This document shows, piece by piece, positions 2,794-22,273 of a stretch of 33,846 nucleotides of DNA (positions within the stretch are counted from its first letter, which is position 1; every line of letters begins with the position of its first letter). The translations under genes and the position numbers were made by a program. This DNA is from a virus, in IMG/VR virus record IMGVR_UViG_3300010368_000046, positions 1-33,846 of that record; one strand, 5' to 3'. Below the pieces are notes generated by a model. It was not told where the DNA came from. It saw nothing but the letters and a program-made list of their open reading frames with translations, and searched no databases.

Positions 2794-2980
2794 GTGGGTT
2801 TTGCAGTTCCTCAATGATCGCTTCTAGTAGATCTTCATATTCTTCATACTCGCCGGAGGCGATCAAGCTATCTATGCAGTCTACGGCGCTCTGCTTCCCA
2901 GCCATGTAGCCAAGCTGGATGCCAATCTGCTGTGCCTCGTCCCAAATCTTCTGGGTTAGCTTTTCCCATAGCCATCTCAT
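2786..2980 (-). CDS. Small acidic protein of unknown function
   Basis: This is a 64-residue protein with an amphipathic N-terminal half (MRWLWEKLTQKIWDEAQQIG) and a very acidic C-terminal half (about 43-64, with EYEEYEDLLEAIIEEL). It is bounded by an ATGA overlap with the regulator gene upstream and an 8-base overlap with the terminase-small-like gene downstream, so it is a real cistron of the operon. The acidity and size would fit a partner that masks a DNA-binding protein, for example an antirepressor-like or terminase-accessory protein, but nothing in the sequence proves this. Confidence 0.72.
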   Translation of the reverse strand: MRWLWEKLTQKIWDEAQQIGIQLGYMAGKQSAVDCIDSLIASGEYEEYEDLLEAIIEELQNPHE

Positions 2981-3486
2981 GCTGCTGGCAGCTTCTCTAG
3001 CTCTACTACGTACTCTGGGGTAATACCGTAAGGCTTAAATGCTTCGATCAGCTTACGGGAGAGAATGTCTGGGAACGCAGACAGCTGGCCGGCCTCATAC
3101 CTGGAGATCACAGCCGGGTTTACCCGGAGCATACTTGCCAACGCCGTAGGCGTTTTCGCAATTTCCAGACGCCATTGCTTGAACGTCTTGTAGTACTGAC
3201 TCAGCGTATACGGCGGTATGACCATTAGGTTCTGCACTGCTGGCGGTGGCGTGATGGTTACTGGCTTGGTGACGTAGTCCTGGATCTGCTTTACTAGCTC
3301 GTCTTCGTCAATACCAAGGCCAGTCGCAATCACATCGATTATTCTCTGAGATGGGTTCTTGGTCCTGCCATCCTCGATCGCTGTAATTGCTGCACGATTG
3401 ACACCAGCCCTGGTGGCTAGGGCCACCTGCGACAAGCCAAGCTGCAGCCTGGCTAATCTCAATGGGTGGTCTGCGATCCGAGCCAT
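2977..3486 (-). CDS. Tandem helix-turn-helix (XRE-type) transcriptional regulator
   Basis: This 169-residue protein has two XRE/Cro-like helix-turn-helix domains. The first (about 8-62) contains LRLARLQLGLSQVALATRAG, then VNRAAITAIEDGRTKNPS, the canonical pattern for the helix pair. The second (about 103-152) contains FKQWRLEIAKTPTALASMLR, then VNPAVISRYEAGQ. A proline-rich linker (about 74-92) joins them. It probably represses or switches phage promoters, and its own operon promoter at 3628-3655 is an obvious target. No peptidase (LexA-like) domain is attached, so release is unlikely to work by self-cleavage. With no integrase in the window it more likely controls early/late timing than lysogeny. 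It is coupled by TAATG upstream and ATGA downstream. Confidence 0.85.
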   Translation of the reverse strand: MARIADHPLRLARLQLGLSQVALATRAGVNRAAITAIEDGRTKNPSQRIIDVIATGLGIDEDELVKQIQDYVTKPVTITPPPAVQNLMVIPPYTLSQYYKTFKQWRLEIAKTPTALASMLRVNPAVISRYEAGQLSAFPDILSRKLIEAFKPYGITPEYVVELEKLPAA

Positions 3487-3627: not shown

Positions 3628-3655
3628 AGTATAGTAGACACCTTTGTAAATGCAA
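3628..3655 (-). promoter_or_regulatory. Leaderless promoter of the leftward operon
   Basis: On the minus strand there is a TTGCAT -35-like box at 3655-3650, a 16-base spacer and TATACT at 3633-3628. The ATG of the first gene follows after seven bases, with no Shine-Dalgarno, so transcription probably starts at or next to the A of the ATG. The spacer contains GTGTCTACTA running into the -10 box, a sequence repeated at the 8091-8132 promoter; it may be an operator. Confidence 0.6.
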
Positions 3656-3684: not shown

Positions 3685-3737
3685 GGAACGGCTGGAACCC
3701 CGGACAACATCCCTTGCCTGTGCCAACAGGGAAACGG
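3685..3737 (+). repeat. Intergenic repeat, divergent copy (copy D)
   Basis: The box GGAACGGCTGGAA (3685-3697) is identical to the core of copies A and B. Slightly downstream, TTGCCTGTGCC and ACAGGGAAACGG (3714-3737) match the flank that precedes the core in copy A. The pieces are therefore present but in a rearranged order, and without the triplet run. The element lies between the divergent promoters and upstream of the first rightward gene. The sequence CAAACTATACC (about 3740-3750) that follows resembles the GTAAACTATAGG after copy A and may be a -10 region. Confidence 0.5.
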
Positions 3738-3777
3738 AGGCAAACTATACCTGTCAAACAATCAAAAGGAGATAGAA

Positions 3778-4233
3778 ATGACAGCAATCAAAGTAAACCG
3801 ACTACAACTAATTGACGCACTAGAGACGGCAATGACCGACATCACTTCTAATTGCGAAGACAGCAGAGCCAAGTGGGAAGAGTATGACAAGCAACGAGAA
3901 GCGTTTGCTGCTGATGTCCTGAAGGAAATGCAAGAACTGGCAGTCAAGGACGGCTACATCAAGCAGGACAGGTTTGGCTTTAACGGCTACTCGCAGGAGT
4001 TCCGCATCTACCTGTCTAACGCACAGATGAAGCGTGCCCCCCAGCAGCCCTCTGAGCCACGACCAACCCAGCGTGAATACAAGAGACACAAGAACAAGTG
4101 GCAGCACATCAGCCTTGACGCTGCTTCACAGGAGAAGATTGAGGAAATAGATAACACACTCAAGCTGCTCCGTATGAGCAATGAGGAGAGTGTAAACGCC
4201 TCGGTCTACAAGTCAGTAGTTCAGTATCTCTAA
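3778..4233 (+). CDS. First rightward early protein, unknown function
   Basis: This is a 151-residue, mostly helical, highly charged protein. The N-terminal half looks coiled-coil (about 8-60, with CEDSRAKWEEYDKQREAFAA), a basic central stretch follows (about 85-110, with PRPTQREYKRHKNKW), and then a second helical part. There are no recognisable catalytic motifs or membrane segments. A strong Shine-Dalgarno (AAAAGGAG, seven bases before the ATG) marks the start, and it overlaps the next small gene as TAATG. Being first in the rightward block, it is probably expressed early. I do not recognise the family. Confidence 0.8.
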   Translation: MTAIKVNRLQLIDALETAMTDITSNCEDSRAKWEEYDKQREAFAADVLKEMQELAVKDGYIKQDRFGFNGYSQEFRIYLSNAQMKRAPQQPSEPRPTQREYKRHKNKWQHISLDAASQEKIEEIDNTLKLLRMSNEESVNASVYKSVVQYL

Positions 4234-4403
4234 TGCCAAAGGTCAATGTAAAGGAGAGCTTCTACTACGAGCTCTGGGTCAATGATGGAGATGACCTACC
4301 TGACACATTCACTAACGAAATGTGCAGTGAAGACAGCGTTTCCCTTGAGTTCATTGATAACGAGCTTGAGTTCTTTGACCTAGATTGGAATGAGGTGAGA
4401 TAA
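4233..4403 (+). CDS. Small acidic protein of unknown function
   Basis: This is a 56-residue frame beginning MPKVNVKESFYYELWVNDGD and ending FFDLDWNEVR. It starts in a TAATG overlap with the upstream stop and ends just before a strong terminator, so it is the natural second cistron of a two-gene unit. The protein is very acidic (many Asp and Glu in 17-56) with one Cys. Small acidic early phage proteins often mimic DNA or bind host enzymes; that is inference only, and no family is recognised. Confidence 0.7.
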   Translation: MPKVNVKESFYYELWVNDGDDLPDTFTNEMCSEDSVSLEFIDNELEFFDLDWNEVR

Positions 4404-4408
4404 AAGCC

Positions 4409-4450
4409 CCCCGCTAGCACCGCCCCCCTCGGTGCTAGCGGGGTTTCTCT
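4409..4450 (+). terminator. Rho-independent-type terminator
   Basis: There is a perfect 14-bp stem: CCCCGCTAGCACCG (4409-4422) pairs with CGGTGCTAGCGGGG (4430-4443) across a 7-base C-rich loop. It is followed by TTTCTCTT, a short imperfect U tract. It closes the two-gene unit 3778-4403 and directly precedes intergenic repeat copy A. Confidence 0.85.
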
Positions 4451-4514
4451 TGCCTGCCCCACAGGGAACGGCTGGAAAATGATGCTGATGCTGATGCTGA
4501 TGATGCTGATGATG
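4450..4514 (+). repeat. Intergenic repeat copy A with ATG/CTG triplet run
   Basis: The element begins TTGCCTGCCCC after the terminator. The 17-base core ACAGGGAACGGCTGGAA (4461-4477) is identical to copy B. A run of twelve ATG or CTG triplets then follows (4479-4514). From the first ATG a 16-codon Met/Leu-rich frame is open to a TGA at 4527-4529. Downstream come GTAAACTATAGG (possible -10, about 4541-4552) and the Shine-Dalgarno of the next gene. The role is unknown. Confidence 0.7.
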
Positions 4515-4573
4515 CCAGCTGTGCAGTGATGCAATCCGCCGTAAACTATAGGTATCTCTTGAAAGGAGACATT

Positions 4574-4681
4574 ATGCAATTAGAAACAACAGCTACATGC
4601 CCGGAGTGCTCCCGGGTGTTTGACCTCTTTGACGTCGATGAGGCCGAGGAGTTTTACTACGGCCACGATTGCGAGGTGTAA
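4574..4681 (+). CDS. 35-residue zinc-ribbon-like mini-protein
   Basis: This short frame begins MQLETTATCPECSRVF. It has a strong Shine-Dalgarno (AAAGGAG, six bases before the ATG). It contains C9-x2-C12 (CPEC) and, near the end, H31 and C33 (GHDC), which together could bind one zinc; the middle is acidic and aromatic. The next gene starts two bases after its stop. It is too short for confident family assignment but the ribosome-binding site and zinc pattern make it credible. Confidence 0.6.
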   Translation: MQLETTATCPECSRVFDLFDVDEAEEFYYGHDCEV

Positions 4682-4683
4682 CC

Positions 4684-5040
4684 ATGCCATTGAATTGGGA
4701 TGCAAGTGAACTACCTAACCTACCCTGGGACGTACAGTCCGAGGAAGAGCGCAACCGTACTGCCAACCTGGCTTGGGTTTGCATGGCCGTCGGTTACCGA
4801 TCTATTAGAGAAAGCAACTGGCAGGACTTTTATGCCAGGTATCGCTTTTACTCTCAATTGCACGGCAACCTGTATGACTACGACGCGGTTGACATTTACC
4901 TGCGAATTGGGTTTGGCACTAATTGCAGTGAAGAGACCGACGCAAAATGGTTCAAGCGTCAAACGGATCAGTACTGCAGTGACCAGCGTGAAAACGCTGA
5001 ACGTGCTGTAGAGAGCTTCCACGAGGGCGCACTGCAGTAA
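4684..5040 (+). CDS. Early phage protein of unknown function
   Basis: This is a 118-residue protein starting MPLNWDASELPNLPWD. I took the ATG at 4684 because it follows the previous stop by two bases and has GAGG upstream; a TTG at 4669 would overlap the mini-protein. The sequence is rich in aromatic residues (about 45-75, with NWQDFYARYRFYSQLHG) and looks mainly helical, with no catalytic motif. It ends just before a near-perfect terminator. No family is recognised. Confidence 0.8.
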   Translation: MPLNWDASELPNLPWDVQSEEERNRTANLAWVCMAVGYRSIRESNWQDFYARYRFYSQLHGNLYDYDAVDIYLRIGFGTNCSEETDAKWFKRQTDQYCSDQRENAERAVESFHEGALQ

Positions 5041-5046
5041 ACAAAT

Positions 5047-5087
5047 CCCTGCCAGCACTTCCCCCAGTGCTGGCAGGGATTTTTTTT
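5047..5087 (+). terminator. Strong rho-independent terminator
   Basis: A perfect 13-bp stem forms where CCCTGCCAGCACT (5047-5059) pairs with AGTGCTGGCAGGG (5066-5078) across a 6-base loop. Eight consecutive Ts follow (5080-5087). It ends the unit 4574-5040 and its T tract runs straight into repeat copy B. Confidence 0.92.
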
Positions 5088-5135
5088 GCCTGCTAAATAA
5101 ACAGGGAACGGCTGGAATTTGATGCTGATGATGCC
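5087..5135 (+). repeat. Intergenic repeat copy B with ATG/CTG triplets
   Basis: TTGCCTGC is followed by the exact 17-base core ACAGGGAACGGCTGGAA (5101-5117), then a TGATGCTGATGATG run. A Met-rich 25-codon frame is open from 5122 to a TAG at 5197-5199. The rest of the 5041-5286 gap contains TGATGCA and AAACTGT, echoing the sequences downstream of copy A. I see no other gene in it. Confidence 0.7.
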
Positions 5136-5286
5136 GTCACTGATGACACTGATGCACTGCCAAAACTGTGCACTACTAGCAATGCACTTACACTTGTAGT
5201 AGTCAATCAGTGTTGGCATCAATTCAAAAATTCACGAACTCGATGCTTCCTCTGGCTACCTAACCAACTATCGAAAGGCAATAACA

Positions 5287-5541
5287 ATGCAAACAACAAC
5301 CAACCTACGCCAGTTCACCGCTAAGCGTGATGGCTACCACGAACAACGAGAGATGCTCCGAGAGACGCTTCTCGCACTATACAAGGGTGCTGACAGCACC
5401 TTCTGGATTCAGAAGGACATCGACCCTAACTACGCTGATCCACGCACCGACTACCTGCTAGGTAAGCGTGATGCGATTAGCGACTTGATCTCTTACATTG
5501 ATAAAACCATGAGCCACCACGGCGTAACAATAAACAACTAA
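5287..5541 (+). CDS. Early phage protein of unknown function
   Basis: This is an 84-residue protein starting MQTTTNLRQFTAKRDGYHEQ. It is helical and charged, with no cysteines, no membrane segment and no recognisable motif. The Shine-Dalgarno is GAAAGG, seven bases before the ATG. It opens a four-gene unit (5287-6759) that ends at the terminator at 6773. The downstream start region CTAACGAAAGGCAACACCATG begins just before its stop codon and is repeated before a later gene. The function is unknown. Confidence 0.78.
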   Translation: MQTTTNLRQFTAKRDGYHEQREMLRETLLALYKGADSTFWIQKDIDPNYADPRTDYLLGKRDAISDLISYIDKTMSHHGVTINN

Positions 5542-5555
5542 CGAAAGGCAACACC

Positions 5556-6005
5556 ATGAAAACAACTAAGTCACTAACCACCAAGCAACTAACCAACCAA
5601 ATCATCAAAATCGCCAAGTCTGGAAGCGCCACCATTAGCGTATTCACTGGCGAACCAGCTAAGCCCAACTACTGGGCTGTTGGTGGCATGGTGAGGCCTT
5701 ACGGTGAAGAGAATGCACTGTATTACTCACCAACTGGCACTCCAGACGCAGAGCGCTTACAAGCCCAGATCGATGCCAACTGGGACATGATCCAGCTAGT
5801 CGGTTACATCGGCATTTGGCGCACCAACGATGGCGAAAGCTTCATCGACTCCAGCTATCTAATCCCATGCTGTTGCGACACCGAAGTCGGCTTTAGCGAG
5901 CCAAGCTTCAAGACCGCCGTAGAGCTAGGCATTAGCAACAACCAAGACGCTATCTGCCATGTTTGCGATTCACTGGCCGAGCCAAAAGATTTTTGGTTGC
6001 GCTAG
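5556..6005 (+). CDS. Early phage protein of unknown function, Cys-containing
   Basis: This is a 149-residue protein. The N-terminal third is Thr/Lys-rich (MKTTKSLTTKQLTNQIIKIA). A mixed alpha/beta region with many aromatics follows (about 38-95, including YWAVGGMVRPYGEENALYYS). A CCC triplet occurs near residue 107 and CHVC near residue 135, which could together bind a metal. It overlaps the ArdA-like gene as TAGTG, so the two are translationally coupled and may act together in counter-defence; that is inference. I do not recognise the family. Confidence 0.78.
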   Translation: MKTTKSLTTKQLTNQIIKIAKSGSATISVFTGEPAKPNYWAVGGMVRPYGEENALYYSPTGTPDAERLQAQIDANWDMIQLVGYIGIWRTNDGESFIDSSYLIPCCCDTEVGFSEPSFKTAVELGISNNQDAICHVCDSLAEPKDFWLR

Positions 6006-6337
6006 TGGACATCGATTACAACCTAGTGAGCTCTTACACCAGCAACCCCGCCCGGTTCATGCTTTGGTTATCGGTTACTGGCAACAGGCCCGATGACCTT
6101 AGCGAACTGGCGTCACTAACCGATGTTGAGGACGAAACATTCATGGGAGAGTACAGCAACCCAGCTGACTACGCCATGGAGACCGCAACCAACAGCTACC
6201 TTGAAGAAATCGAAAATCTACCAACATGGATTAGCAACTGCATCGACTGGAACACCGTATGGCACCGCGAGCTCCAGCACGATTACTACACACTAGACAA
6301 ATCAAACGGCTATACCCTAATCTGGGCAACCATCTAA
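6005..6337 (+). CDS. ArdA-like antirestriction protein (C-terminal module only)
   Basis: This is a 110-residue protein. The GTG at 6005 is taken as the start because it overlaps the upstream stop as TAGTG; a longer frame from 5963 exists. The second half matches the pattern of ArdA antirestriction proteins: an acidic FMGEYSNPADYA stretch, then LPTWISNCIDWNTVWHREL and HDYYTL, comparable to the family's 'F-GEY-S..eyA.. ..YIDw...a.dL..dY' layout. ArdA proteins are acidic DNA mimics that inhibit type I restriction enzymes. The usual N-terminal domain is absent, so this is a short version. The call is from pattern memory. Confidence 0.55.
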   Translation: MDIDYNLVSSYTSNPARFMLWLSVTGNRPDDLSELASLTDVEDETFMGEYSNPADYAMETATNSYLEEIENLPTWISNCIDWNTVWHRELQHDYYTLDKSNGYTLIWATI

Positions 6338-6351
6338 CGAAAGGCAACACC

Positions 6352-6759
6352 ATGAACACCAATACCACCGATGTACTAACCGAGTCCGTAACATTCACTA
6401 TCAAGCACCAGCTACCCGTTACCAGCTTGATCGAGCTAGTCAACGCAGCGTTCGAGACGGGAGCTATCGCTTACTGGGTTGACCTCGCTAGCGACATCAA
6501 GCGGGCCCCAGAAGGGCTCTTTGACTACACCTACTGTTACCGCTTCTTGATCGAAGCTGACGGCGACACACTTGAACTCAATGTTGACACTATCCGAAAA
6601 GGGATACAGCTGATCCTTGACGGCACGGTCGGTGTGAACCAACGACTCAGGGGATACATAGTTAGCGCACTGGCCGACGATGATCTAGGCATGATCGATA
6701 GCGACGCTCTGGATGTAATTGTCCAAGCGGGCCTATTCCAGGAGCTAGTCTACGGATGA
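6352..6759 (+). CDS. Conserved actinophage protein of unknown function
   Basis: This is a 135-residue protein. I placed the start at ATG 6352, which has GAAAGG upstream; the frame is open to 6259 but would overlap the ArdA-like gene. It contains AAFETGAIAYWVDL (about 28-41), DTIRKGIQLILDG (about 83-95) and the C-terminal DALDVIVQAGLFQELVYG. The combination 'GGI-YW' plus 'D-IVQ-A-F-E-VYG' recurs in many actinophage and gammaproteobacterial phage hypothetical proteins as I remember them; the function is unknown. It ends just before a terminator. Confidence 0.8.
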   Translation: MNTNTTDVLTESVTFTIKHQLPVTSLIELVNAAFETGAIAYWVDLASDIKRAPEGLFDYTYCYRFLIEADGDTLELNVDTIRKGIQLILDGTVGVNQRLRGYIVSALADDDLGMIDSDALDVIVQAGLFQELVYG

Positions 6760-6772
6760 TCCAGCACACCAG

Positions 6773-6811
6773 AAAATACCCTGCAGGCTTAGGCTTGCAG
6801 GGTATTTTTTT
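6773..6811 (+). terminator. Rho-independent terminator
   Basis: AAAATACCCTGCA (6773-6785) pairs with TGCAGGGTATTTT (6796-6808) in a perfect 13-bp stem with a 10-base loop. The T tract continues to 6811. It ends the 5287-6759 unit and, as in the other two cases, is followed directly by TTGCC and an intergenic repeat copy. Confidence 0.9.
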
Positions 6812-6859
6812 GCCCGTAGGAGGCCAGCACCGTCGGCCGGAAAATGATGATGATGATGC
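6810..6859 (+). repeat. Intergenic repeat, degenerate copy C, with ATG run
   Basis: TTGCCCGTAGG follows the terminator. CGTCGGCCGGAAA (about 6831-6843) is a diverged form of the GGAACGGCTGGAA core, and then come five ATG triplets and one CTG (6844-6861). A 20-codon frame from 6844 ends at TAG 6904-6906. The position (after a terminator, before a new unit) is the same as for copies A and B. Confidence 0.5.
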
Positions 6860-6910
6860 TGCCCCGTAGGTGCAAAAACACCAAAATCCAGTCGCAACGC
6901 CTATAGAGCA

Positions 6911-9186: not shown

Positions 9187-9343
9187 CATTGAAACCCGAG
9201 AGCCTTGCACCGATGAGGACTGCGAAGGCCTAGACATCCTGGATGCTGAAGAGGACCTTGAAGAATGTTTCTTATGCGACAAGGTCGACTGCATCTGCGA
9301 CGAACTAACCGATCGATACAAGGAACGTGATCTATTTGAGTGA
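9179..9343 (+). CDS. 54-residue acidic Cys-rich protein
   Basis: This is a frame from the GTG at 9179 with TAGGAG about eight bases upstream. It carries seven cysteines, arranged as C2, C10, C15, C33, C36, C41 and C43 (CFLCDKVDCIC), and many Asp and Glu. It overlaps the previous gene by 8 bases and the WhiB gene by 17. The dense cysteines suggest a zinc or iron-sulfur site. I do not recognise the family. Confidence 0.6.
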   Translation: MCDIETREPCTDEDCEGLDILDAEEDLEECFLCDKVDCICDELTDRYKERDLFE

Positions 9344-9632
9344 CAAGCTGAGGTATTTCTGGAGCGCCAAGGGGCATAACCAGTCATGGATGGCACTACA
9401 AGAAGTCATCGAAGAGGTTGGCTACGATCAACTGCCATGTCGGCAGGCACCTGACCTATACCACCCCAATGCTGATGAGAAGTACTTTCTGAAACTCGCT
9501 ACTGATGCATGCCAGAAGTGTCCCATCATCAACGCCTGCGGTGCTTATGCGATCAAGTATGAGAAAGAAGGCATCTGGGGAGGCATGACTGCCAGTGCCC
9601 GGCACAAGATCAGGAAGGCCGGCAAGCTGTGA
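9327..9632 (+). CDS. whiB: WhiB-family iron-sulfur transcriptional regulator
   Basis: This 101-residue protein has the four invariant WhiB cysteines: C38, then C62-x2-C65-x5-C71 (ACQKCPIINAC), followed by the family turn GIWGG (82-86) and a basic C-terminus (SARHKIRKAGKL). WhiB proteins bind a 4Fe-4S cluster and the primary sigma factor domain 4 to redirect transcription; phage copies are known to interfere with host WhiB function. A GTG at 9327 is used as start, though a TTG at 9336 is possible. It overlaps the helicase gene as GTGA. It is the strongest single indicator of an actinobacterial host. Confidence 0.92.
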   Translation: MIYLSDKLRYFWSAKGHNQSWMALQEVIEEVGYDQLPCRQAPDLYHPNADEKYFLKLATDACQKCPIINACGAYAIKYEKEGIWGGMTASARHKIRKAGKL

Positions 9633-19031: not shown

Positions 19032-20369
19032 TTAGAGCCCTACTTGGTATTGAGTTAAAGAATTAGCGGTTGCACCTGTAAGGGTTCCGCCCCTATTGGT
19101 TACGGTACCTGAATAACTTGTTAGTGAGGTTAGCGCAACAGGATATGTCTGATTTATTGTGCTTAGCGAGCTTGCTGCATAAACCAGGGGCACGCCGTTA
19201 AGAGTATAAGTCCCGGTTAGGCTTCCGTCATTAGGTAGCTTAGCAATCAAAAGGTCAGCGCCACCTGAACCTGCTGAGGCTGTCTGCCCAACGATACAAA
19301 TATTTTCTGCTGAATCAAGTGCTATTGCATGCCCTTGTTCAATACCAGTGCCCCCCAAGGTGCGTTGCCATTGAATAGTTCCTGATGAGTCGTACTTAGC
19401 AATCAAAAGGTCCTCGCTACCTGCACCTGCTGAGGCTGTATAGCCAAGCAAATAAAGATTCTCGCTAGAGTCAATAGCTAACGAAGTAGCGCGGTCAAAA
19501 CCAGTGCCACCCAAAGTGCGTTGCCATTCAAAACCATATACTGAGTCGTACTTAGCGAGAAAGAGACGGTTAGAGCTTGTATAGCCAGCCACATAAGCAT
19601 TATCGCTGCTTCTCGTTGCTACCGAGATGCCATATTCACCACTACTCCCACCCAGCTTGCGCTGCCATATAACAGCGCCGTTAGAGTCGTATTTAATCAG
19701 TGCGAGGTCTTGGGATAAATAACTGGTGCGCCCCTTACGGTAAACTGCCAGTCGTATATACCCAAGTGCATAAACATAATCTAGGGGATCAGTTGTTACT
19801 GATGTTCCCCATGTATAACCAGTCCCACCCAGCAAGCGCGACCATGACTGATTGCCGTTTGAGAGGTACTTAGCAATTAATAAATCAGGCCTGGACCCTT
19901 GCCTTGAATATGTTTCTCCAACCACATAAATGCTATCAGTTGAGTTAACCCTTACCGACAAGCCTTTTTCAGTACCAGACGCACCCAAAGTGCGTTGCCA
20001 TTGAAGAGATCCTGATGAGCTGTACTTGGCAAGCAAAAGGTCACTGCCACCTCCACCTCCTGGCGAGCTTGTAGTGCCAGTTACATAAACGTTATCAGTT
20101 GAGTCAAGTGATACCGATGCGCCATAGTCAAGACCAGTGCCACCCAAAGTGCGTTGCCATTGAATAACGCCGTCAGAGTTGTACTTAATGAGCAAGACAA
20201 CATTATTGGTTACACCTCCTGAGGTTGTCTCGCCAACCACGTAAAAATTATCGCTTGAGTCAATAGCTATTGATCTGCCAGCCTCAAAACCAGTACCACC
20301 TAGCGTTCCTATCCAGTAATCACCTTTAGGTCCATATGGATAACCTAGTAGCGCCATACTCCAAGCCAT
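19032..20369 (-). CDS. Seven-repeat beta-propeller tail fibre
   Basis: This is a 445-residue protein. Seven repeats of about 47-60 residues each follow the pattern [W-Q-R-T-L-G-G-T-G]...[S-x-D-S-x-D-N-x-Y-V-x-G]...[L-L-x-A-K-Y]. Examples are WQRTLGGTGLDYGASVSLDS and then TDNVYVTGTTSS. This is an SBBP/NHL-type propeller unit, so the protein should fold as a seven-bladed wheel. It has a short N-terminal lead (1-18) and a 90-residue C-terminal beta domain. Propellers bind carbohydrate or protein, consistent with a host-recognition role; the repeats are also prone to recombination, which can alter specificity. It lies between the collagen-like fibre and the assembly-like protein. Confidence 0.82.
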   Translation of the reverse strand: MAWSMALLGYPYGPKGDYWIGTLGGTGFEAGRSIAIDSSDNFYVVGETTSGGVTNNVVLLIKYNSDGVIQWQRTLGGTGLDYGASVSLDSTDNVYVTGTTSSPGGGGGSDLLLAKYSSSGSLQWQRTLGASGTEKGLSVRVNSTDSIYVVGETYSRQGSRPDLLIAKYLSNGNQSWSRLLGGTGYTWGTSVTTDPLDYVYALGYIRLAVYRKGRTSYLSQDLALIKYDSNGAVIWQRKLGGSSGEYGISVATRSSDNAYVAGYTSSNRLFLAKYDSVYGFEWQRTLGGTGFDRATSLAIDSSENLYLLGYTASAGAGSEDLLIAKYDSSGTIQWQRTLGGTGIEQGHAIALDSAENICIVGQTASAGSGGADLLIAKLPNDGSLTGTYTLNGVPLVYAASSLSTINQTYPVALTSLTSYSGTVTNRGGTLTGATANSLTQYQVGL

Positions 20370-20371
20370 AA

Positions 20372-22273
20372 TTAAATCCCCAGGTCGCCAGCAAGGATGT
20401 AGGTGTTAGTACCTATACATTTTATGCCTGCTACCGAGTACTGTTCAGCAGTCAAAAGGTTTCCCCCTTTGGAGTTCAGTGTCATGCCAGCACCAGCAGC
20501 GAAGGTGATCTGGGCTACTCCATTCTGCATGAAGTCAACCTGCTGACCGACTGTTAGTCCCTGCACAGTAATAGTAATTGGAGCTGAGTTTAGGATCAGC
20601 TTTCCAGCGTCTGCTGAAGTCAGAGTGTAGCTTACGGCCTTAATGTCAATTACCTGAGTTGAACTAAAGCCACCGTCAGCACCATCAGCTCCGTCAGCAC
20701 CTGCAGGGCCTGTATCACCTTGTATGCCCTGAATACCTTGGTCGCCCTGAATACCTTGAATGCCCTGAATACCTTGGTCGCCTTGGTCGCCTTGAGGTCC
20801 AGTATCGCCCTGAATACCTTGAATGCCCTGAATACCTTGGTCGCCCTGAGGCCCAGTATCACCTTGGACACCTTGTATACCTTGAGGGCCTTGAGGTCCT
20901 GTTGGGCCTGGAACGGTTGAATCTGCGCCTACATCTCCCTGAATACCTTGTGGGCCTTGAGGTCCAACATCTCCCTGAACACCTTGAATGCCCTGAATAC
21001 CTTGGTCGCCTTGAGGTCCAGTATCGCCTTGAATACCCTGAATGCCCTGAATACCTTGGTCGCCTTGAGGTCCAACTTCTCCTTGAATACCTTGAATGCC
21101 TTGAGGGCCTTGAGGTCCTGCTACACCAGTTCTAACAACAACAAAAAGAACACTGTCATTGTTGGTAAATATGTAACCACCTTCAACATAGCTAGCTGGA
21201 ATCTGGTCATAGGTAGAGAACTCAACTGGGTCACCAGTTACTTCCCACTTCTGATAGTTAGCCGAGTTTCCAGTTTCCTGAATAATTAGGAAGTCACCAG
21301 CTTTGATGAGGTGAATAAATAGATTTACATCTTCACCATCTCTGTCAATGTGGCTTGCACTAAGAATAGTTGCATCAATTTGACCTGCCGTGTTCCAAAT
21401 ACCGTGCCCTGAACCTGGGTCACCACTTGTAATTGTAGTTTTTACTGTGTATGGGAAGAATGCAGATGAACCACCATCGGCTCCAGCCAAACCCTGAATA
21501 CCCTGAATGCCTTGAATACCTTGTGGGCCAGTTTCGCCTTGAATACCTTGGTCGCCTTGAGGTCCTGTTGGGCCTGGAACGGTTGAATCTGCGCCTGTTT
21601 CGCCTTGGATACCTTGTGGGCCTTGAGGTCCAACTGGACCTGGAACGGTTGAGTCAGCTCCAGTCTCGCCCTGAATACCTTGAATGCCTTGATCGCCCTG
21701 TGGACCAGTATCTCCTTGGATACCTTGAATACCTTGAATGCCCTGATCGCCCTGTGGACCAGTATCTCCCTGAATACCTTCGATGCCCTGGATGCCTTGG
21801 TCGCCTTGAGGCCCAGTATCACCTTGAATACCCTGAATGCCCTGAATACCTTGTGGCCCAGTCAAGCCAATAGGGCCAATAGGGCCCTCCTCGCCAGTGT
21901 TGCCAGTTGGGCCTTGCAAGCCCTGATCGCCTTGTGGCCCCTGAGGTCCAACTTCTCCTTGGATACCTTGAGCACCAGTAGCACCAGTTAAACCAGTAGC
22001 ACCAGTTAAACCAGTAGCACCGGTGTCGCCAATAAGGCTCTCAAGCCATTGAGCTTCTGTGCCTCCATAGCCGTTTGCTACAGCGATTTGGTAAGCCGAG
22101 AGGCCTGAAGCGCCTTGAGTGAAGTACGGAAGCCCGTTCCAATTTGTAACGCCGTCACCGATTTTAAACTTCTTAGTGTCCAGCTCTACGGCTAGCTCAC
22201 CTTGGGCTAAGACGGGGTTAGCAGCGGTCCATGCGGTCGCGTTTCCACGCCGGATCTGAATAGTTACAGCCAT
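20372..22273 (-). CDS. Collagen-like tail fibre with central and C-terminal domains
   Basis: This is a 633-residue protein. Residues 1-50 are the attachment segment common to phage fibres ([32 protein letters not shown]). Two long Gly-X-Y regions (about 75-275 and 390-530) are dominated by GPQG, GIQG and GDTG units and form triple helices, giving a trimeric shaft. Between them is a folded domain of about 115 residues ([20 protein letters not shown] and on) and at the end a tip domain homologous to that of the fibre at 1565-2050. The protein probably forms the main fibre. It overlaps the next gene as TAATG. Highly repetitive DNA makes it a likely site of copy-number variation or misassembly. 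Confidence 0.88.

Follow-up and report, generated by a model that had tools for sequence, protein, structure and literature searches.

A conserved, oriented and probably promoter-side element at the heads of early gene units in a group of uncultured actinophages

The window analysed here is a whole 33.8 kb IMG/VR contig (33,846 nucleotides), which its primase, tail, portal, capsid and WhiB-like genes place among phages of actinobacteria; no near relative was found among the phage isolates searched. Its early region comprises a leftward gene for a predicted regulator and a series of rightward units, of which D, A and B are closed by terminators (Table 1). Elsewhere in the window, long arrays of 9-, 18- and 54-nt repeats at 20372–22273 (−) look like collagen-type G-X-Y sequence, and a beta-propeller-type gene (19032–20369) adjoins them.

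The rightward units are headed by a 13-base box, GGAACGGCTGGAA, which is present in three exact copies (D, A, and B), while sites with up to three mismatches number 21 in the window against 7.85 expected, a count reached by none of 100 shuffles. The initial annotation had described a recurrent order of terminator, TTGCC, box and ATG/CTG triplet run, and both the terminators and the runs were found where it had placed them, with T..TTGCC following each terminator. Copies A and B lie directly 3′ of terminators and precede triplet runs, and the stretch they share exactly was confirmed to be 17 nt long (ACAGGGAACGGCTGGAA). Copy C (CCGTCGGCCGGAA) is weak, differing at five of 13 positions, but it stands where expected behind a terminator and its AATGATGATG tail is the same. 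The claim that copies A and D share a similar spacing to AAACTATA did not hold, as this sequence begins, counted from the box start, at 57 nt for copy D and at 78 nt for copy A.

Table 1. Features of the early region (window coordinates).
Feature	Position	Strand	Remarks
Divergent regulator gene, 169 aa, two tandem Xre-type HTH; candidate box binder	2977..3486	−	HTH_3, AlphaFold, MBF HTH match
Second conserved motif, AGTAGACAC	3633..3641	+	HTH-side promoter region; shared, with at most one mismatch, by the divergent regions of most examined relatives
Box copy D, GGAACGGCTGGAA, then GGACAACATC	3685..3697	+	Divergent region; GGACAACATC likewise follows the D copies of relatives
Putative −10 of unit D, AAACTATA	3742..3749	+	From sequence
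Unit D, first gene	3778..4233	+	Homologues (about 30% identity) follow an early box in G007, G014, G018, G020, G022
Terminator closing unit D	4409..4443	+	
Box copy A	4465..4477	+	
TGATGC triplet run, expanded box to −10 spacer	4480..4515	+	Variable-length runs at the same place in L115, L117, L118, L146
Putative −10 of unit A, AAACTATA	4543..4550	+	TAAACT at 4542; next genes at 4574, 4684
Terminator closing unit A	5043..5082	+	
Box copy B	5105..5117	+	
Unit B triplet-rich spacer	5119..5154	+	−10 uncertain, TACACT at about 5189
Unit B gene, weak match to ArdA C-terminal part	6005..6337	+	Start codon by eye; PF07275 E=0.022, below curated cut-off; phrog_36653 anti-restriction E=0.0036
Terminator closing unit B	6771..6810	+	
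Degenerate box copy C	6830..6842	+	5/13 mismatches; ATG run 6844–6858 and TATAGA 6902–6907 downstream

A matrix built on the first box copies was used to scan the early regions of relatives, 21 related contigs having been found via the primase. The element was present in the same early region, as GGAATGARTGGAATGTGATG in one group and as GCAACGARTGGAATG in another, and two near-complete genomes that had appeared to be without it (G012 and G015) have three to four boxes of GGGACGGCTGGAAAG type, in the divergent region and at unit heads. Searching with the divergent HTH gene yielded 39 loci, and the box was found in every new locus with enough early sequence. The element (consensus AG-GRRAYGRNTGGAA-WG) occurs two to five times per genome, confined to the early region and without exception on the transcribed strand. 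Over 35 whole records, 86 matches to the strict pattern GRRAYGRNTGGAA were obtained, on one strand within each record; all of these lie in the early region except two apparently unrelated ones (G031 and G032), and the records without an early strict match carry variants such as GCAACG.. and GTGACG... One copy per genome separates the regulator from the rightward early genes, mostly 70–90 nt from the regulator start, and each further copy stands at the head of a later unit. Of 59 copies outside the divergent gap, 31 have a terminator within 100 nt (median 25 nt). Other genomes thus do have the box next to a terminator, the recurrence on which the initial annotation had staked its reading. That A3, G5, and GGAA never vary in the count table follows from how the search was set up, and the evidence is carried by the freely varying columns (−2 to 2, 4, 6, 13, and 14) together with the comparison within genomes, where paralogous copies are 73–100% identical over the first 10 box columns and their flanks mostly 20–30%, which is the random level. 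We concluded that the box is a conserved, oriented early-promoter element of one uncultured actinophage group. A 16-base query, CAGGGAACGGCTGGAA, had 18 matches in IMG/VR, a number close to the chance expectation, and these lay in unrelated, apparently coding contexts. It was also observed that about 70–100 nt upstream of the divergent box copy are unusually conserved across distant relatives (L045:4912 region and equivalents), where AGTAGACAGGTGTTGCAAAT..ATTTTTGGAGGGGTG..GCTAG.TATAAG precedes the box and CACAACATC stands just after it.

Of 88 box copies, 27% have a −10-like hexamer (TANNNT-like, score ≥3) beginning 36–41 nt downstream of the box start, compared with 12% (sd 3.4%) in shuffles, none of 500 of which reached the observed value; the signal is modest. 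No −35 signal accompanied it (2.17 of six matches versus 2.27 by chance). If the hexamer is the −10, the box therefore spans about −50 to −36. The stretch between the two is somewhat T/G-rich, and in the window as well as in L115, L117, L118, and L146 it is filled by ATG/TGATG runs of variable length; thus, the triplets are read as an expanded spacer rather than as a separate element. The box is asymmetric, not palindromic, and stands about 80–330 nt before the first start codon in most units. Two other readings of this geometry were rejected. Helical phasing of the box to the −10 was suggested by spacings of 25, 36, 47, and 58 nt after a 15-mer in a few copies only, and was dropped when a larger set added spacings of 0, 3, 4, 11, 13, 14, and 35 nt (hand count). 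The TATAAG found directly before some boxes was rejected as their −10, as its sixth position is G in 75 of the 88 copies where a −10 needs T.

The divergent regulator gene is the likeliest source of a protein reading this site. HTH_3 was found in two stretches of its 169-aa product, the AlphaFold model (pLDDT 85.6) has two helical HTH units, and the second half of the protein matches MBF HTH. Apart from the short fragment G050, all box-bearing relatives of sufficient length have a homologue (52–73% identical), and among the contigs fetched by the box alone four of five carry the HTH gene, the fifth being a 7.3 kb fragment. A fold search returned mostly single-HTH matches, none at E ≤ 0.001, the recognition-helix residues do not track the box variants, and no HTH relative was confirmed in an 84,980-species genome set. 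The conserved AGTAGACAC beside the regulator gene is possibly its own, autoregulatory operator, and the regulator might bind there instead of at the box. Since AGTAGACAC could be such an operator, the two-HTH protein is regarded as no more than the probable binder of the box.

The initial annotation had offered a protein-binding site, a regulatory RNA or a recombination junction as explanations. The first of these is the one supported by dozens of related contigs, in which the box lies on the transcribed strand at unit heads with a −10-like hexamer downstream. The likeliest role of the box, ahead of an RNA or a recombination site, is to bind a regulator on the promoter side. In its fuller form, to which we give about even chances, the box would be a double-stranded, asymmetric site of about 17 bp upstream of early promoters, which ties insulated units to one regulator, likeliest the two-HTH protein. 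Each unit would then run from box through T/G-rich spacer (the ATG/CTG run in this phage), −10, leader and genes to a terminator that would insulate it from the next, while the shared box would place all units under one regulator. The two-HTH Xre protein may bind the asymmetric site via its two DNA-binding domains, and would shut down, or less likely switch on, the early anti-defence and host-takeover units together. We infer working promoters, HTH protein binding and the sign of regulation.

A rather less probable explanation is that a host factor, either an activator or an RNA polymerase-associated protein such as a Wbl, recognises the box and thereby drives strong immediate-early transcription, the phage HTH protein acting elsewhere. 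Early genes must start before phage proteins exist, a box centred near −42 without a −35 occupies the place of a class II activator, and a WhiB-like gene (window 9327–9632; PF02467, 5e-10) is present in most, not all, relatives. However, the gene is undetectable in the box-bearing G012 and G015, on which account a WhiB-dependent promoter was rejected as a general rule, and the 20-bp form of the box, admittedly a narrow pattern, occurs in none of the sequenced bacterial genomes searched. Moreover, box-to-−10 spacing differs by tens of bases within the window and the triplet sub-group, more than an activator acting from a fixed position would tolerate; this counts against the two-HTH reading as well.

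The preferred reading, a promoter-side site for the phage regulator, has its closest parallels in mycobacteriophages. Cluster A phages (L5, TipsytheTRex) possess operators and stoperators together with a monomeric immunity repressor that has two DNA-binding domains (PMC9283540, PMC6550527). The box resembles these sites in being short (about 13 bp), asymmetric, intergenic and of one orientation relative to transcription, with one copy at the early promoter, in drifting in sequence between sub-groups, and in its co-occurrence with a regulator that is predicted to have two DNA-binding domains. It differs from them in consensus and in distribution, since two to five sites stand here only at early unit heads, while cluster A genomes have 20–30 genome-wide, most of them not at promoters; in addition, cluster A phages are temperate and have integration or partition genes, while no integrase was found here, and the second domain is an Xre-type HTH by sequence and model. 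An unlikely variant draws on this parallel (PMC9283540, PMC6550527): the box-bound regulator would act as at a stoperator, blocking polymerase that reads through the upstream terminator and so insulating the units doubly. The single orientation, the asymmetry, the two-domain regulator and the frequent position just 3′ of terminators would suit it, but the low copy number and the restriction to unit heads would not, and no terminator precedes any of the 29 divergent copies. Cluster K mycobacteriophages carry the SAS and ESAS elements (PMC3203893, PMC11373665), which like the box are repeated, conserved intergenic elements of actinophages, contain or adjoin a SigA-like promoter (a predicted one for the box) and head small non-structural genes. 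Unlike the box, ESAS is built on an imperfect inverted repeat of 17 bp and has −35 and −10 elements 17–18 bp apart, whereas the box has its −35 matches at chance; SAS is a 13-bp sequence with AGGAG 3–9 bp from the start codon, whereas the box lies far upstream, before the −10. In function the box comes closest to cluster A promoter operators or cluster K ESAS promoters, and it lacks defining features of each.

Whether the box could be a recombination or boundary sequence for exchanging early gene units bears on the turnover of the units themselves. Close relatives do differ in units: one of about 0.8 kb, present in G022 and G018, is absent from G007, where the left flank is the divergent box and the right flank the promoter of the next unit. 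The join in G007 falls between box and −10, not at the box core, and no tyrosine or serine recombinase (PF00589, PF00239) was matched. By sequence comparison the loss of a unit between tandem promoters is real and, as far as the searches show, involves no recombinase. The recombination-junction proposal of the initial annotation fits units that come and go, but it would leave the orientation and the promoter context of the box unexplained. This reading is disfavoured because the place of the box relative to promoters explains its conservation better, and we consider it improbable. Least credible, and highly improbable, is the proposed regulatory RNA or leader element made of box plus triplets: the repeated AUG/UGAUG text is leader-like and read-through transcripts would contain it, but six of the seven box regions folded show no advantage over shuffles (z-scores near 0), and the value of the seventh (−1.98) comes from a hairpin 3′ of the −10. 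The purine-rich core offers little for base pairing, and no Rfam match was found in the window.

The promoter-side binding site gains interest from the genes it heads. When 80 representatives from the units were compared with Pfam and PHROGs, the genes proved to be short and mostly without family match. Anti-restriction families, assigned throughout by homology only, were represented by ArdA (PF07275, best 5e-10) and an Ocr-like family (phrog_2568, best 8e-7), and a sliding-clamp-like family and SSB genes also occur in box units. In L146 an ArdA gene directly follows box and triplet run, and a family with weak Ocr-like matches in two rescanned members lies 260–470 nt behind the box in most of its genomes. 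The box marks early units in which known anti-restriction families stand beside many short genes without an assigned function; the actinobacterial phages concerned have no close isolate among the collections searched. In tailed phages, moron-type accessory units are small genes between their own promoter and terminator. The present units share this bracketing, the promoters being predicted, and their accessory features comprise the terminators, the −10 enrichment and the one unit present in G022 and absent from G007; unlike morons, several stand in tandem under one common regulatory box. New anti-defence genes of archaeal viruses were found directly by way of a conserved regulatory sequence in front of early genes (PMC11065993). 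As there, one promoter-side sequence precedes several early genes, some of them anti-defence, and the regulator may co-occur; the sequence is unrelated, the phages are actinobacterial and the anti-restriction roles are homology-based. The box offers the same handle on anti-defence genes here as in that system (PMC11065993), and may be a further instance, beyond the cluster A mycobacteriophages, of an oriented, asymmetric operator paired with a two-HTH regulator. More tentatively, the units may form a plug-in early regulon. Its two-HTH regulator would act like an anti-CRISPR-associated (Aca) repressor, but on many units at once, by reading one box at the head of every insulated anti-defence cassette, and triplet spacers prone to slippage, lying between box and −10, would adjust cassette strength. 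If so, any new gene landing behind a box would join the regulon, and the box would serve to fish for unknown anti-defence genes among phages of uncultured actinobacteria.

Some further observations concern the early units. A sliding-clamp-like gene lies inside box units at L122:3338–3928, L126:3170–3781, and L128:3188–3823 (−) (phrog_947, PF02767 weak). Repeats resembling a tRNA T-arm (CCAGCAGACACTGGGGTGCAAGTCCCCAGCGGGCACGA) stand between the early genes of relatives (L102:1545, L102:1832, L103, which is the G015 early region, L045:4520, and L107:4338 and 5255); ARAGORN called no tRNA at them, and they are possibly RNA-processing or tRNA-derived linkers. Finally, a 37-nt repeat of AACTAACGAAAGGCAACACCATGAA type occurs three times inside unit B of the window (5262–5298, 5532–5568, and 6328–6364), spanning the ribosome-binding site and start codon in a manner reminiscent of start-associated sequences.
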